Source: a virus. Taken from it: 20,174 bases of DNA. Below the pieces are notes generated by a model. That model did not search any database. It was not told the origin of the DNA and worked only from the letters and a program-made list of their open reading frames with translations. The stretch spans positions 1 through 20,174 of IMG/VR virus record IMGVR_UViG_3300042451_002050. The stretch is one strand, 5' to 3'. This document shows positions 2,602 to 7,497 of this stretch, one piece after another; within the stretch, counting starts at the first letter, position 1, and every line of letters begins with the position of its first letter. Position numbers and translations under genes: made by a program.

Positions 2602-2769
2602 ATGTGGAAACTAATCGGCATGATGCTCGGCGGCGGAGCGATCCCGCGCGAAGCAGCTCGGGCCCGGAGCAACAACGGATGCTGGCCGGAGTTGCTTGGC
2701 ATCGCCATCGGTATCATACTGGGCGTGCTTGTGACGCTCGGTGTACAGGCATGTAGGGGGGAACTATGA
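2602..2769 (+). CDS. 55-aa small membrane protein
   Basis: The ORF opens MWKLIGMMLGGGAIP and has a basic, polar middle (about residues 15-27). It then has one hydrophobic segment at about 31-49 (LLGIAIGIILGVLVTLGVQ) followed by ACRGEL. A GAGG ribosome site sits 6 nt before ATG 2602, and the stop overlaps the next ATG (ATGA at 2766-2769). The first hydrophobic stretch is short and may be a second membrane contact. It is one of three small coupled genes (2172, 2258, 2602). A lysis or membrane-attachment role is possible but not shown by any motif. Confidence 0.6.
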   Translation: MWKLIGMMLGGGAIPREAARARSNNGCWPELLGIAIGIILGVLVTLGVQACRGEL

Positions 2770-3074
2770 CAACGACCACCAAAAGCAACGACAAAGACAC
2801 TCTCGCCTTCGCCGGTCTTTGCAACTTTGTCGCATGGTGGGAGTCGTTCAAGGCTTTACACTGCGAGGGCATTTACGCCACTTGGTCTTGCGATGCTGAC
2901 CTGGTGGTCAGATTCGTGTTCCGAAAAGGGTGCTCGGTTTTCAATTACAAGCTTGACTTGCGAGATCGATACATCCCCAAAGCGGTGCTCGAGATGCAGG
3001 TCGGCTTGCTCAAATTGCAGGCGGTACCAACCATAACCAAACCCAACGTTAGCGACGGCCAACCATGCCCATGA
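2766..3074 (+). CDS. 102-aa hypothetical protein ending in repeat A
   Basis: I do not recognise this protein. It has a polar N-terminus (MTTTTKSNDKD), then an aromatic, Cys-containing part (FVAWWESFKALHCEGIYATW), a short strand-like stretch (DLVVRFVFRKGCSVFNY) and a basic or acidic helix. Its last residues (TKPNVSDGQPCP) are encoded by the first copy of repeat A. The start is coupled to the upstream 55-aa gene by ATGA. The stop overlaps the second ATG of the HNH gene (ATGA at 3071-3074). Overlaps at both ends and the absence of internal stops support a real gene. Confidence 0.6.
   Translation: MTTTTKSNDKDTLAFAGLCNFVAWWESFKALHCEGIYATWSCDADLVVRFVFRKGCSVFNYKLDLRDRYIPKAVLEMQVGLLKLQAVPTITKPNVSDGQPCP
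3037..3055 (+). repeat. Repeat A, copy 1
   Basis: The 19 bases CCAAACCCAACGTTAGCGA match copies at 3337, 3541 and 3777. This copy lies at the 3' end of the 102-aa gene and encodes TKPNVS. The match stops after the GCGA, so the stop-start part present in copies 2 and 3 is missing here. Confidence 0.75.
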
Positions 3075-3358
3075 ATCGCGACAAGTACCCAGCGGACTGG
3101 GAGCAGATCGCCACAGACCTCAAGGACCAAGTGGACTGGAAGTGTGAAGGCTGCCGAAAGCAATGTCGCAAGCCGGGCGAACCGTTCGACACGCACCGAC
3201 GGACGCTCACCGTGGCCCACATCAACCATGTCGAGTCCGACTGCGATCTGGGCAACTTAGTCGCACTTTGCGCACCGTGCCACCTTGCCTATGATGCCTC
3301 AATGAAACGATTCCGACGCATCGCAAGCAAACGAAAAATCAACGATAGCGAGTCTTAG
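3071..3358 (+). CDS. HNH endonuclease
   Basis: The protein is a small ββα-metal (HNH) nuclease of the type phages often carry near the terminase genes, where it can assist genome packaging or act as a free nuclease. With ATG 3071 as residue 1, it has a Zn-binding CxxC at 25-28, the catalytic-region motif TVAHINH at about 47-53, N62 in GNLVAL, and a second CxxCH at 67-71. This is the usual Cys4-HNH order. I chose ATG 3071 because it overlaps the preceding stop (ATGA); ATG 3065, two codons upstream, is also possible. The C-terminus (INDSES) is encoded by repeat A copy 2. The large terminase lies about 1.7 kb away on the opposite strand, an unusual orientation for such a pair. Confidence 0.85.
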   Translation: MNRDKYPADWEQIATDLKDQVDWKCEGCRKQCRKPGEPFDTHRRTLTVAHINHVESDCDLGNLVALCAPCHLAYDASMKRFRRIASKRKINDSES

Positions 3359-3374
3359 CCAATGACCGAACCAC
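3337..3374 (+). repeat. Repeat A, copy 2 (gene-junction repeat)
   Basis: This copy spans the last codons of the HNH gene (S-E-S-stop), a 3-nt gap, and the start of the next gene (M-T-E-P). It shares GCGAGTCTTAGC and TGACCGAACCAC with copy 3. The left part is diverged (AATCAACGATAGCG against AACCCAACGTTAGCG). Confidence 0.8.
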
Positions 3375-3565
3375 TGCTCGACGCGAATCCAGACTGTTCT
3401 AGGTTCAAAGATGTGGACATCTTGATCAGGCTCAAAATCATGGAGTCGTTTGGAGTGCCAGTATCTCTCCTGGGTAACCAACCCAACTACTCGTCGGCAA
3501 TTCTCGACTCGTGGGATTGGGGGAGCACCCTGCCAATCCCAAAACCCAACGTTAGCGAGTCTTAG
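3362..3565 (+). CDS. 67-aa hypothetical protein between repeat A copies
   Basis: This small ORF begins MTEPLLDANPDC inside repeat A copy 2 and ends PKPNVSES inside copy 3, so both of its ends are repeat sequence. The unique middle contains ILIRLKIMESFGVPVSLLG followed by NQPNYSSA. That stretch faintly resembles the 'GVPxxLLG...NYSS' segment of phage portal-like proteins. The ORF is too short to be a portal, and I give this little weight. It starts 3 nt after the HNH stop, without a clear ribosome site, so translation is probably coupled. Confidence 0.5.
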   Translation: MTEPLLDANPDCSRFKDVDILIRLKIMESFGVPVSLLGNQPNYSSAILDSWDWGSTLPIPKPNVSES

Positions 3566-3581
3566 CAAGTGACCGAACCAC
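3541..3581 (+). repeat. Repeat A, copy 3 (gene-junction repeat, most complete)
   Basis: This 41-bp copy holds the end of the 67-aa gene (K-P-N-V-S-E-S-stop) and the GTG start of the zinc-ribbon gene (M-T-E-P). It matches copy 1 on its left, copy 2 on its right and copy 4 over most of its length, so it is the reference copy. Confidence 0.8.
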
Positions 3582-3778
3582 AGCAATCAGATCGACCGGA
3601 GGACGAGGCAAATCCATACTGGGAAGACAGTGACTGGGATCCATGCGACAAGGTGTGCCCGGACTGTGGCAGGTTGGTATGGGAAGCCACTTGGTTCGAC
3701 GATCCCCCTGAATTGGGAGGCGCGGCAATCGGCACCAAATGGGAGTGCGGGGATTGCGGGTGGTCTGATTTAAACTAG
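3569..3778 (+). CDS. 69-aa zinc-ribbon protein
   Basis: The start is a GTG at 3569 inside repeat A copy 3, giving MTEPQQSD, which is parallel to the MTEPLLD start of the preceding gene. An acidic, Trp-rich N-terminus (YWEDSDWDP) is followed by VCPDCGRLVW (CxxC at about 29-32). About 30 residues later comes WECGDCGWSDLN (CxxC), near the C-terminus. The two CxxC knuckles make a rubredoxin-like or zinc-ribbon fold very likely. DNA, RNA or protein binding is possible, and nothing indicates which. No ribosome site is visible, so reinitiation after the preceding stop is likely. Confidence 0.65.
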   Translation: MTEPQQSDRPEDEANPYWEDSDWDPCDKVCPDCGRLVWEATWFDDPPELGGAAIGTKWECGDCGWSDLN

Positions 3779-3811
3779 CAAACCCAACATTAGCGAGTCT
3801 TAGCAAGACTC
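3777..3811 (+). repeat. Repeat A, copy 4 (array end)
   Basis: AACCCAACATTAGCGAGTCT and the following TAGCAAG match copy 3 with one change, after which the sequence diverges (ACTCGC instead of TGACCG). It directly follows the TAG of the zinc-ribbon gene, so here the repeat is non-coding and no start codon follows. Confidence 0.75.
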
Positions 3812-3813
3812 GC
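3793..3813. other. Perfect 9-bp inverted repeat with 3-nt loop
   Basis: GCGAGTCTT, then AGC, then AAGACTCGC form a perfect hairpin at the edge of repeat A copy 4. It lies in the 128-bp gap between the zinc-ribbon gene and the next gene, the only clear intergenic gap in this arm. There is no following T-run, so it is not a classical Rho-independent terminator. It could still pause or terminate transcription, stabilise the mRNA 3' end, or mark a recombination edge. Confidence 0.5.
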
Positions 3814-3906
3814 ACAAGCCAGAAAAGCCAAAGGATTTCCCGTCCGTGGTCCTAGTTGTGGTCCTGGGTTGTCCGTAGACTACAAGCAGCAAACAGGGGA
3901 GTAACT

Positions 3907-4722
3907 ATGAGCGATCAGACTAAGCCAACGCAAAAAATTGAGGGACAGCACGCTTTCGACGCACAAAGCCTTTGGCGAACGCGACTCGTCGAAATGATGC
4001 GTAGAGACCCGATTGAGAGAGTACGCATGATCGCGACATACATCCTTGCGGCTCAGCAGTTGGCTGCCGAAATGAAACGAGCGACTGCACTGACAATGCC
4101 GGAACATTCGAGTAAAGAATTTGACGCCTATTTGGAACACATGGAGACCGAGCTCGGTAGACATGGCGTCGAGATGCTTGGGTTCAATCCATGGCAGATT
4201 CTCGACCCATCACCCACTCTTCCGCCTGAGGGCCCGCAGCAAACAGAGGGAAACCATGGCAGCGTTGATCACGACAAGATTCAGTACCGCGAGCCTACAG
4301 AGGACGATTTAGAAAACGGGCCAATTGCATGCGAGGTTCGAGATTTTTACGGCGACAGATGGAGAAAAGGAACTCTGGTTCGAATAACGAATCCGACGCG
4401 GCATTTTGTAATCATCAGTCAATTTGATGACCGATTTTTCCGAGACTGCCGAATCAAGGTAACTTCACCTGAATCACCCACTCTTCCGCCTGAGGACCCT
4501 CATCTGGCGAGGAGCAATCTAGGATGCTTCATCAAAACGTACTTTCCAAAAGCGGAATTCGGAATGGACATCGCGGCGTTCGCTGCTCGCACTCGAGCCG
4601 ACCGGAACAATCACTTCCTCGACTCGACGAGCCTAGCCGAATTGGTACTGAAAAAAGACCCATCACCCACTCTTCCGCCTGAGGGCCCGGAGCAAGGAGA
4701 CAAAAATGCGACATCCAACTAA
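3907..4722 (+). CDS. 271-aa modular protein with three SPTLPPEGP/DP linkers
   Basis: ATG 3907 has a good ribosome site (AGGGGAGT) and is preferred to the in-frame start at 3856. Module 1 (about residues 1-101) is helical and rich in Arg, Glu and Met. Module 2 (about 118-188) contains YREPTEDDLENGP, EVRDFYGDRWRKGTL and FFRDCRIKV. This pattern matches, from memory, a small beta-rich protein common in planctomycete phages ('YRxPTxEDLxxGPIxxEVRD...W'). Module 3 (about 200-251) is short, with an FAARTRAD core. Each module ends in repeat B, read as PSPTLPPEGP, ESPTLPPEDP and PSPTLPPEGP. The spacing between these copies is a multiple of three (264 and 189 nt), so the frame stays open. This looks like several small genes fused through repeats. 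Functions are unknown. Confidence 0.6.
   Translation: MSDQTKPTQKIEGQHAFDAQSLWRTRLVEMMRRDPIERVRMIATYILAAQQLAAEMKRATALTMPEHSSKEFDAYLEHMETELGRHGVEMLGFNPWQILDPSPTLPPEGPQQTEGNHGSVDHDKIQYREPTEDDLENGPIACEVRDFYGDRWRKGTLVRITNPTRHFVIISQFDDRFFRDCRIKVTSPESPTLPPEDPHLARSNLGCFIKTYFPKAEFGMDIAAFAARTRADRNNHFLDSTSLAELVLKKDPSPTLPPEGPEQGDKNATSN
4208..4240 (+). repeat. Repeat B, copy 1
   Basis: These 33 bp (starting CATCACCCACTCTTCCGCC, ending CCCGCAGC) are identical to 5007-5039, which is the 3' end of the terminase gene. On the + strand the copy encodes S-P-T-L-P-P-E-G-P. The complementary strand would encode the terminase C-terminus L-R-A-L-R-R-K-S-G-stop. Confidence 0.9.
4473..4498 (+). repeat. Repeat B, copy 2 (diverged right end)
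   Basis: ATCACCCACTCTTCCGCC followed by TGAGG matches copy 1, then the sequence changes to ACCCT. It encodes ESPTLPPEDP inside the 271-aa ORF. It lies 264 bp (88 codons) after copy 1. Confidence 0.85.
4661..4689 (+). repeat. Repeat B, copy 3
   Basis: This copy is identical to copy 1 up to GGGCCCG, including the preceding GACC. It is followed directly by the ribosome site (AAGGAGA) of the next gene. It encodes PSPTLPPEGP near the end of the 271-aa ORF, 189 bp (63 codons) after copy 2. Confidence 0.9.
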
Positions 4723-5047
4723 CGATTACACAGATGCCGAGTATAGAGCCGTGGTCGCAAAACAGCGGCTGTTGGCTTGGAAGCACAGGGATCCCGACAC
4801 CACGCACTCGGTCATTGCCACCTTTTTCGAGATCTGCGCGCAAGAGGCATTCGAACTGCGGGGCCATCAACATAACCTTGTAATTCAAGGGAGCAAGATG
4901 TCCGAAAGTGAGATAGAAGCCTTGGAGAAGGCCTCACGCGACGCAGAGCGAAAGATCAGAGAGGCTTCGGTCTTCGTGTTCGGCTACGACATTTTCGACC
5001 TGAAAGCATCACCCACTCTTCCGCCTGAGGGCCCGCAGCTCGGCTAG
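4706..5047 (+). CDS. 113-aa hypothetical helical protein ending in repeat B
   Basis: ATG 4706 has the strong ribosome site AAGGAGA and overlaps the previous gene by 17 bp in another frame. The product is mostly helical. Residues 1-60 include YTDAEYRAVVAKQRLLAWK and an FFEICAQEAFELRG stretch, and a second charged helix follows (SESEIEALEKASRDAERKI). It ends ASPTLPPEGPQLG, encoded by repeat B copy 4. Those last bases are also the 3' end of the terminase gene on the other strand (39-bp tail-to-tail overlap). I do not recognise the family. It is the last gene of the rightward cluster. Confidence 0.6.
   Translation: MRHPTNDYTDAEYRAVVAKQRLLAWKHRDPDTTHSVIATFFEICAQEAFELRGHQHNLVIQGSKMSESEIEALEKASRDAERKIREASVFVFGYDIFDLKASPTLPPEGPQLG
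5007..5039 (-). repeat. Repeat B, copy 4 = terminase 3' end
   Basis: On the - strand this copy encodes the terminase C-terminus L-R-A-L-R-R-K-S-G and its TGA stop. On the + strand it encodes SPTLPPEGP of the 113-aa protein. It is identical over 33 bp to copy 1 and is the only copy attached to a conserved gene, so it is the likely parent of the family. Confidence 0.9.
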
Positions 5048-7270
5048 GGTGAGCTTGCCGTCGTTCGGCCGCTTGGCGATCTTCTCGACGGCTTCGACGC
5101 GCTGCTCGACCGGGGACGGCTCTCGGGATTGATCCTGCTCGGGTCGATCCTGTCCGGATCGGTCGGACATGGAAATCTTGCGTCGGCGTACCACTCGATC
5201 GGACTCGCCGGGGACTTTCACCCCCAGGATCGAGGCACCTACCGCGGCTAGGATCGTCGCGTCGCCCAAGTGATTGTCCCGGCCTGGACGCAAAGCCCAC
5301 TCAAACAGCTCTCTGCCTTGTCCCTGGGTCTTGGTGGGGTATTCTGCGGAGAGGTTGTCCCCGGCCATTCTGTGACGCATTGGGGCGGCTCGGTAGAGCC
5401 ACCATGCTCCAGGCTCACCGGCATCGGTCGTCCAGCGGTTCATCATGGCGGTCTTCCACGTGTTGGTGTCGATCAGGCAGTACCGCGGGGCTCGGGTTCC
5501 TCGGGTCGGTGGCATGCGCCAACCAAACCCCATACGCTCCCCGGCTTTCTTCTTCTCCTGGTTCCAGGGCCTCTGGCGTGCAGTGACTCCCTTGCCATGG
5601 CTTGGAACCACATGCTGATGCATCTGCGAAAATCGGTAGACGACTTCCGTCTGGTACCCTGCATCGACGACCATGATCTCGGGCCGGAGCTGTGTTCCGT
5701 CGTCTCGAGTGTACGTGACAGCGAGTCGTTCCTCCCGGAGCTTGCCTAGCGCGACCAATAGCGACTCGGTCGAGGATCGAATTCCGGTGGCTCGTATGAT
5801 AGTCCGATCGATGTCGGCGAGGGTGACATAATCGATTCCAGGCTCGGGCCAGATCCCATAATCGACGACGAGGCCGGAGAAGTCTGCTCCGACGCCAGCG
5901 ACTGTCCACCAGAGCGAGGATCCTTGGACGTCCACTCCCAAGGTGATGTGCTCGACCCAGTCGGGAATCTCCCCGCGGCGGTGGGTCGGCAAGATCCGCA
6001 GACAGAACTCGTCGGAGGTCAGGCAGCGGATGCCATCGACGGCAACAATCGATTTCTTGGGCTCGTTTTGATACTCGGCGTCAAACGTGTCCGGATTATC
6101 GAACCGGAGATTCATCGCATGTTGGATTGCGGAGATCTCGTGCGGGAACTTTCGATAGGCCCAGCCTGCTTTAGACCCTGCGTCCATTGCTTCGCGGTTG
6201 GCCTTATAACATTTGTTAGCTTTCGGGTGCTCGTCGTTTCCTTCGGCGATCTCTTCGGATCGAAGATCAAAGTACTTTTGCCAGAGCTCGGTGTTGGTCG
6301 GCCACTCATAGACAAGCCGGCATCGATCGCCGTGCCATTTGGGCATGAGCTTGTTGTTGAGCATCCGGTCGGCGGCGTCGCCTTCTCGGATGACGGTGAC
6401 GGCCGCAAAGCCTGCGATCCGTTTCCCAGGCCCACCAAGGCCCAGGATGGCCCCACCGATCACCTTTTCCCGCTTGGCACATTCCGCGTCGGACAATGCC
6501 GAAGTGTCGGTCTGCGGGTCATTGACGAGCACGAAACCGGGGCGGATCGTCTTACCGTCTGCGAGTACCTTTTGCATCCCTCGGACTCTACCGAGGATCC
6601 CAGTGCAGCGAATGATTGCCCCGGATGCCTGCGATCCCTCGATCGTTGGGAACACGAGCTCCTTGCGACGCCATCCGATCAGCGTCCGCTTGCCTTGGGT
6701 GGTCTGCGCGTTGCCTCGTTGGGTAATTCCCTCGAGGCATCGGATTGGGAAAGCGATCTCGGGGAAGTCCTCGAGAAGCAGCGGGTTGGTTTCCCACTCG
6801 ATCTTGATCACATCGAGCGATTCCTCGGCAGCACCTTCGTCGGCTTCGACTAGGACTCCGAATCTCTGGTGTCCATAGGTCAGCACCCAGAGCATGGCTC
6901 GCAGGAGGATGGTTGTCTTGCCACTCCCTCGAGGCATAGCGATGCATTTCAAACCACCGTTGATCGCTCGCTCTTCGATGTCCTTGAGGATTCGCTCATG
7001 GTCCTCGGAGAATGGAAGCGGAAAAGACTCTTTGAAGTACGTGAGAAGGTACTTCTTGAGATTGAGCCGACAGGACTCTCGTCGCTTCGCATTGACGATC
7101 GCCGGAATCGGGCCGATGTCTCTGGCCTCGGTCGATTCCTCTTTGGCTTTCGAAGCCTGGCGCTTGCGGTGTTTTGCATAGGAGTCCTTGGGACGCTCCG
7201 AGCCAGACTCGTTGTCATCGTCCTCGGGATCCTCGGGAGCTGCTGCGGCTGGCGGTCGCTTGCGTGCCAT
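5009..7270 (-). CDS. terL: Phage terminase large subunit
   Basis: This is the packaging motor that cuts concatemeric phage DNA and drives it into the procapsid. In the 753-aa product a charged N-terminus (1-55) precedes the ATPase. Walker A is AMPRGSGKTT (111-120), and a probable Walker B is FVLVNDPQ (246-253). The nuclease domain follows, with candidate metal-binding Asp residues in GVDVQ (D447), VVDAGYQ (D536) and HLGDA (D670). The GVDVQ opening and overall layout resemble GpA-type terminases. I chose ATG 7270 because it overlaps the stop of the upstream small gene (TGATG); an in-frame extension to 7339 would run through that gene. The tail (about 700-753) is polar and ends in the repeat B sequence. 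Unusually, the gene is last in the late operon. No small terminase subunit is recognisable in the window. Confidence 0.9.
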   Translation of the reverse strand: MARKRPPAAAAPEDPEDDDNESGSERPKDSYAKHRKRQASKAKEESTEARDIGPIPAIVNAKRRESCRLNLKKYLLTYFKESFPLPFSEDHERILKDIEERAINGGLKCIAMPRGSGKTTILLRAMLWVLTYGHQRFGVLVEADEGAAEESLDVIKIEWETNPLLLEDFPEIAFPIRCLEGITQRGNAQTTQGKRTLIGWRRKELVFPTIEGSQASGAIIRCTGILGRVRGMQKVLADGKTIRPGFVLVNDPQTDTSALSDAECAKREKVIGGAILGLGGPGKRIAGFAAVTVIREGDAADRMLNNKLMPKWHGDRCRLVYEWPTNTELWQKYFDLRSEEIAEGNDEHPKANKCYKANREAMDAGSKAGWAYRKFPHEISAIQHAMNLRFDNPDTFDAEYQNEPKKSIVAVDGIRCLTSDEFCLRILPTHRRGEIPDWVEHITLGVDVQGSSLWWTVAGVGADFSGLVVDYGIWPEPGIDYVTLADIDRTIIRATGIRSSTESLLVALGKLREERLAVTYTRDDGTQLRPEIMVVDAGYQTEVVYRFSQMHQHVVPSHGKGVTARQRPWNQEKKKAGERMGFGWRMPPTRGTRAPRYCLIDTNTWKTAMMNRWTTDAGEPGAWWLYRAAPMRHRMAGDNLSAEYPTKTQGQGRELFEWALRPGRDNHLGDATILAAVGASILGVKVPGESDRVVRRRKISMSDRSGQDRPEQDQSREPSPVEQRVEAVEKIAKRPNDGKLTLAELRALRRKSG

Positions 7271-7497
7271 CAGTATCGGCTCGGCCTTTGGCGTGGAATA
7301 CCATGCTTGGGGGCACAGTTGCACTGGCGGTAGTACCAAGTGATCCGCTCTCGAGTGGAGGCGGCTTTGTACTTAGCACCACAGCATGAGCATGTGGGCG
7401 CCGTGCCTCTAGCCTGACGACGGTATCGTCCGTGCGGGCTGGAATTGTGGGGCATGAGATGCGTCATCTCGGCATTTAGTTCGGCGAATACGACCAT
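7270..7497 (-). CDS. 75-aa Cys-rich zinc-finger-like protein
   Basis: Cysteines cluster as CSCCG (36-40) and CNC (59-61), with SSPHGRYRRQAR before them and a basic tail (HGIPRQRPSRY). The spacing and the ITWYYRQCNCA segment faintly recall Ogr/Delta-type phage zinc fingers (C..CG...T...Y.QC...C), which activate late transcription. The match is incomplete and I would not assign that function. ATG 7497 has an AGGAGG site 10 nt upstream and overlaps the end of the preceding gene by about 20 bp. The TGA overlaps the terminase ATG, so the two are translationally coupled. A packaging accessory role is therefore also possible. Confidence 0.65.
   Translation of the reverse strand: MVVFAELNAEMTHLMPHNSSPHGRYRRQARGTAPTCSCCGAKYKAASTRERITWYYRQCNCAPKHGIPRQRPSRY

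Follow-up and report, generated by a model that had tools for sequence, protein, structure and literature searches.

Small genes beside the terminase gene of a phage family are probably exchanged between phages by short-homology recombination at one conserved block, designated element T, under selection for a working stop and start codon. The window, which is the whole stretch of DNA analysed, is a viral contig of 20,174 bp (Table 1). A run of small plus-strand genes lies left of the terminase gene, with T between them and the terminase gene. Four copies of a repeat were found in this run, all on the plus strand. By their sequence, copies 1 to 3 are truncated left ends of T, i.e. scars, and copy 4 is the left end of T itself.

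Table 1. Features of the small-gene array and its surroundings (window positions unless another locus is named).
Feature	Position	Strand	Remarks
Window, whole IMG/VR viral contig IMGVR_UViG_3300042451_002050	20,174 bp		
g102, small ORF	2766..3074	+	no family match
Scar 1 (copy 1)	3039..3055	+	T left end truncated behind GCGA; joins g102 to the HNH gene
HNH endonuclease-like gene, 97 aa	3065..3358	+	phrog_1571, E=2e-16; Pfam HNH below cut-off
Scar 2 (copy 2)	3335..3359	+	T left end cut after GCGAGTCTTAGC; junction HNH/67-aa gene
Scar 2 junction	stop TAG 3356-3358; next start ATG 3362		
67-aa gene (g67)	3362..3565	+	no family match
Scar 3 (copy 3)	3542..3569	+	T left end cut after GCGAGTCTTAGCAAG; junction 67-aa/69-aa gene
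Scar 3 junction	stop TAG 3563-3565; next start GTG 3569		
69-aa gene (g69)	3569..3778	+	no confident family match
Element T, 88-bp block	3780..3867	+	left end is copy 4; conserved in relatives, with unrelated genes on both sides
Perfect palindrome of T (9-3-9)	3793..3813	.	GCGAGTCTT-AGC-AAGACTCGC; holds the TAG at which upstream genes stop
Two GTGGTCC direct repeats, 12 bp apart	3846..3864	+	right half of T; from the T alignment
Repeat B, intact form	5008..5039	.	terminase gene 3′ end, on the minus strand; serves the second array as fixed block
Large terminase, GpA-type (lambda-type)	5009-7339	-	
Gene with an RF-1 domain, resembling peptide chain release factors	L111:13319-13693		Pfam PF00472; one of the genes apparently exchanged beside T

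The sequence-only reading of this DNA had described four repeats, and these proved real and beyond chance: a 20-nt core, with up to three mismatches allowed, matches at three places in the window and nowhere in 100 shuffles, the truncated copy 1 not being among the three. As described there, copies 2 and 3 hold AGC GAG TCT TAG (S-E-S-stop) and, 3 nt further on, an ATG or GTG followed by ACC GAA CC (M-T-E-P). An assembly artefact was ruled out by the recurrence of the copies in relatives from many separate metagenomes. The description of copy 4 as having lost the start codon is wrong, as this copy is intact, with the full palindrome and 54 more conserved bases. Nor is there support for reading copies 1 and 4 as ordinary array ends: copy 4 is a complete single-copy element and copies 1 to 3 are left-hand scars. 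Each scar comprises 13–14 left bases of T and then 4, 12 or 15 nt of the palindrome (scars 1, 2 and 3, respectively), directly followed by the next gene. Intact T itself was found after the 102-aa gene in locus L030, after the HNH gene in L046 and after the 67-aa gene in L007.

A set of 46 loci from IMG/VR contigs, gathered by their related terminases, served as the sample of relatives. In INPHARED the region has no convincing relative at the DNA level, the terminase being only weakly alike (24–28% identity) among the matches listed. The 67-aa, 69-aa and HNH genes occur across the relatives in at least five combinations of presence and absence, with the junctions falling in the repeat, as the sequence-only reading had proposed, and the repeat-flanked genes are not stable in all relatives. 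The gene order ahead of T is g102-HNH-g67-g69 in the window, g102-g67 in L007, g102-g69 in L006, L009, L023, L024 and L039, g102 alone in L030, L004 and L016, the HNH gene without g102 in L046, L047, L049 and L043, and g102-HNH-g69 in L020. Locus L025 has an RF-1-type gene followed by another ORF (an RF-1-domain gene is found elsewhere without the extra ORF), and g133 directly precedes T in L044. The 67-aa gene is present in L007, L005, L008 and L018 and in none of the remaining relatives examined. The 69-aa gene comes with a scar in the five g102-g69 loci and without one in L020 and L060, and the end of g102 lies at T, at a scar, or at neither, depending on the relative. Array type is at odds with the terminase tree: L046, with the HNH gene, has nearly the same terminase as L006, L009 and L024, with g102-g69, and L025, with the RF-1-type gene and ORF, has the same terminase as L023 and L039, again with g102-g69.

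A second type of joint was observed upstream of T in L060, L020 and L025, where a gene ends like GATTGGAGCTGCTGCGATGA, with an ATGA stop/start overlap and different genes after it. In L029 and L037 the gene ending at T has an NPPF motif and is a candidate DNA adenine methyltransferase. A microhomology, GCAAG, between the loop of T and the end of the RF-1-type gene was hinted at by the scar in L037 and was set aside as too short for argument.

Homology switches were located by pairwise extension outward from the repeat core, and all those examined fall inside the repeat. Scar 2 of the window shares 222 nt on the right and 8 on the left with L007, and 283 nt on the left and 12 on the right with L046. 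For scar 3 the shared lengths are 215 nt left and 15 right with L007, and 313 nt right and 13 left with L006; for scar 1 they are 444 nt left and 4 right with L030. Four close pairs pass from about 99.7–100% identity to unrelated sequence at the left or right edge of T, these being the closest pairs at hand, picked for closeness, and a lone homology island would look alike. Rightward from the start of the palindrome, L025 and L023 agree without a mismatch over 2,176 nt, as do L046 and L006 over 2,500 nt; leftward, the first pair is unrelated beyond −17 and the second differs beyond −13. Identity is 99.93% across 4,075 nt up to +74 for L024 and L023, and 99.94% across 3,083 nt up to +75 for L047 and L046; both end points are the right edge of T, beyond which several hundred bases are replaced. 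The edges of T match the recent recombination boundaries in the close pairs. A true hotspot at T cannot be claimed, since conserved sequence surrounded by variable sequence draws apparent crossovers as the sole homology.

Local unequal crossing-over, by which the repeats would be a tandem duplication within one lineage and genes would only be lost by deletion between copies, is unlikely. Direct repeats of 20–28 bp can indeed delete the intervening DNA, and the simpler arrays look like the window array minus genes. However, the genes between the copies are unrelated, the T-left variants in the scars differ from the resident T, and the different genes at T in relatives, together with near-identical backbones carrying different arrays, indicate that genes are also gained or exchanged. 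The alternative gene sets contradict unequal crossing-over as a full account; it may act in addition to exchange between phages.

Eight unrelated protein families share a single frame on entering T or a scar and terminate at the TAG of the palindrome, with (K)PNxSES-stop or similar tails (KPNVSES, KPNDSES, KINDSES, KTKESES, KPNDCES). The families are the listed proteins compared after removal of the tail, which show no significant mutual similarity. T explains this common C-terminal tail of unrelated small proteins, which could mislead annotation. The cut point lies 1 nt after TAG in scar 2 and 4 nt after it in scar 3, the next start following 3 nt past TAG in both, and the stop/start spacing is preserved in relatives where the flanked genes differ, in agreement with the sequence-only reading. 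At scar 1, the 102-aa ORF runs through the scar to a TGA which overlaps the second ATG of the HNH gene (ATGA-type); the true start of this gene may be ATG 3071. The 69-aa gene has its own stop ahead of T. Shine-Dalgarno pairing at the scar-borne starts is −2.2 to −3.0 kcal/mol, with a random background median of −3.0, and amounts to −5.6 to −9.9 kcal/mol for g55, g102, the 3907 ORF and g113. The spacing or overlap together with the weak pairing would fit coupled translation of the scar-started genes.

The palindrome of T is the longest perfect inverted repeat of the window (loop up to 10 nt), carries the TAG at positions 9–11 and is identical in all aligned T elements. The stem never varies and so offers no compensatory changes, which speaks neither for nor against an RNA role. 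The exact 21-mer was found in 35 viral contigs, once in each, nearly all of them already known via the terminase; among 12 whole records it is single-copy in nine and missing from the three most distant. Species genomes of bacteria and archaea, 84,980 in all, contain no exact match to it. Among distant terminase relatives (35–59% identity), none of three records contains the palindrome within three mismatches, and eight loci share no consistent hairpin close to the end of the terminase gene. The GTGGTCC pair varies in concert between lineages (GTGGTCCT, GTGGTCCC, GTGGGCCT), as expected for binding sites of one protein. The unvarying stem and the joint change of these repeats suggest a protein ligand of T; an invariant palindrome is also more than a hairpin acting purely as a terminator would require, so a protein that participates in the process may be bound at T.

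In L020 and L032, T almost touches the opposing terminase gene, as a 3′-end element would, and its hairpin may form an mRNA 3′ end or terminator. T was rejected as an intrinsic terminator: the stem is stable, but there is no U-tract and no terminator call. Rfam gave no match for T up to E=1, and a consensus scan, the consensus of which may not be that of the host, found no sigma-70-type promoter in T. A role as attP was also rejected, as T is some 12–13 kb from int, a separate attP-like site exists and T has no exact match in bacterial or archaeal genomes. The integrase, of the tyrosine, phage type, was located in two 39-kb relatives at this distance from T, beside a tRNA-like sequence. A probable attP with arm sites was noted next to it, with repeated GTACGGCGC and GAGCGTGT and a tRNA 3′-end-like stretch (L110:4240-4720, L111:1-340). 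A candidate origin is formed by two long palindromes with GTAACGCT in common, which lie within the replication initiation gene (L110:13037-13254, G001:33037-33254).

In the mechanism proposed here, T would be a fixed, single-copy block at the 3′ end of a rightward array, common to close relatives within a hypervariable stretch. Because T is shared whereas the sequence around it differs among co-circulating phages, recombination between phages that co-infect or are resident would resolve there and swap the genes on either side, with general short-homology recombination as the presumed agent. T would also supply the stop: incoming genes that run into the palindrome in the matching frame would end at TAG. 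A further gene could then be joined just past TAG, as in scars 2 and 3, or the stop could be remade as an ATGA overlap, as in scar 1, so that a scar, the left end of T, would stay with the upstream gene. Translation of the new gene would be by coupling, from a start 3 nt past or overlapping the old stop and with no clear Shine-Dalgarno sequence. Later crossovers between two scars, or between a scar and T, would reassort the genes singly, the scars offering further, shorter homology. We infer the exchange itself from the comparison of relatives. RecT is absent in four large relatives and the early genes scanned include no annealing recombinase, both of which count against this mechanism. The idea of small genes exchanged at the repeat with stop and start kept, as put forward in the sequence-only reading, is retained here, and the array-end anatomy it gave to copies 1 and 4 is abandoned.

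A dedicated, integron-like site-specific cassette system, in which a recombinase would cut the centre of the T palindrome (7-bp arms GCGAGTC/GACTCGC around TTAGCAA) and insert small genes, is considered quite improbable. Scars 2 and 3 do end close to the palindrome centre, a 21-bp site with a 7-bp spacer has the size of a tyrosine-recombinase core, and an invariant palindrome with co-varying direct repeats alongside would suit such a system. Yet the scar ends vary in their palindrome length and define no one cleavage point, gene content varies at T-free joints as well (ATGA overlaps, L020, L060), and the distant phage integrase has its own attP-like sequence, tRNA 3′ end and other arm repeats. 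A central join is explained as well by selection for a stop just ahead; since the position of TAG accounts for joins near the centre, no cleavage there is needed. It is very doubtful that T is a site of phage-borne gene capture, at which an unrecognised protein would bind the palindrome and the GTGGTCC repeats and insert ORFs after the stop, leaving a half-site scar per addition; if so, the scars would record successive gene gains. HNH genes drive local exchange in other phages and one belongs to this array, but homing, with the 97-aa enzyme cutting near T and repair copying the region between phages, is a very improbable explanation, as most relatives exchanging at T have no HNH gene and the gene behaves as one more passenger.

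Exchange at a fixed block may not be limited to T. The sequence-only reading had seen two adjacent arrays with different boundaries, which holds in that repeat B is unrelated in sequence; yet repeat B obeys the same rule, with the terminase 3′ end as its fixed block. Scar-like copies at 4209, 4473 and 4662 repeat the last 27–34 nt of the terminase gene, and the repeat B copies (4209–5039) are scars of the terminase 3′ end in antisense, within the ends of plus-strand genes. One ORF of the window crosses three repeat B copies and contains repeated SPTLPPEGP-like segments. At 4255-4275, L043 has ATGGCAGCGTTTGATCACGACAAGAT and the window one thymine fewer, by which the ORF from ATG 4256 is frame-shifted, either in reality or by sequencing error.

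Exchange of a single small gene without breakage of the operon is usually visible only as blurred mosaic borders; here one phage family displays the joint, the cut scars and near-identical recent recombinants together, which makes the step testable. Integron cassette arrays likewise have small genes in series, a related sequence after each and a fixed block at the end. However, cassettes end in attC sites (folded, roughly 57–141 nt), whereas the inner copies here are 17–28 bp without the right palindrome arm, the join points are variable and there is no nearby integrase, the phage integrase being the only one found. PeSL are reportedly composite promoter/stem-loop motifs of T4-like phages. T resembles them as a short conserved intergenic stem-loop block amid unrelated genes, an island of homology for module shuffling. 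It differs in being intact once per genome, compared with multiple copies in a T4-type phage, in belonging to a phage with a lambda-type terminase and a tyrosine integrase, and in giving the stop codon itself, with cut pieces persisting inside gene ends. In lambdoid phages, the boundary sequences of early genes (the ‘linkers’ of modular evolution) are short shared gene ends with stop and start, which guide the exchange of small genes with translation kept. The exchanges at T similarly have homology only over a short common boundary in which the stop/start signals are preserved, but the sequence and the phage group are different and the boundaries can be traced to one intact parent, T. PeSL and the lambdoid boundary sequences are the nearest known ideas, and T stands apart from them by its single copy, its provision of the stop and its recognisable scars.
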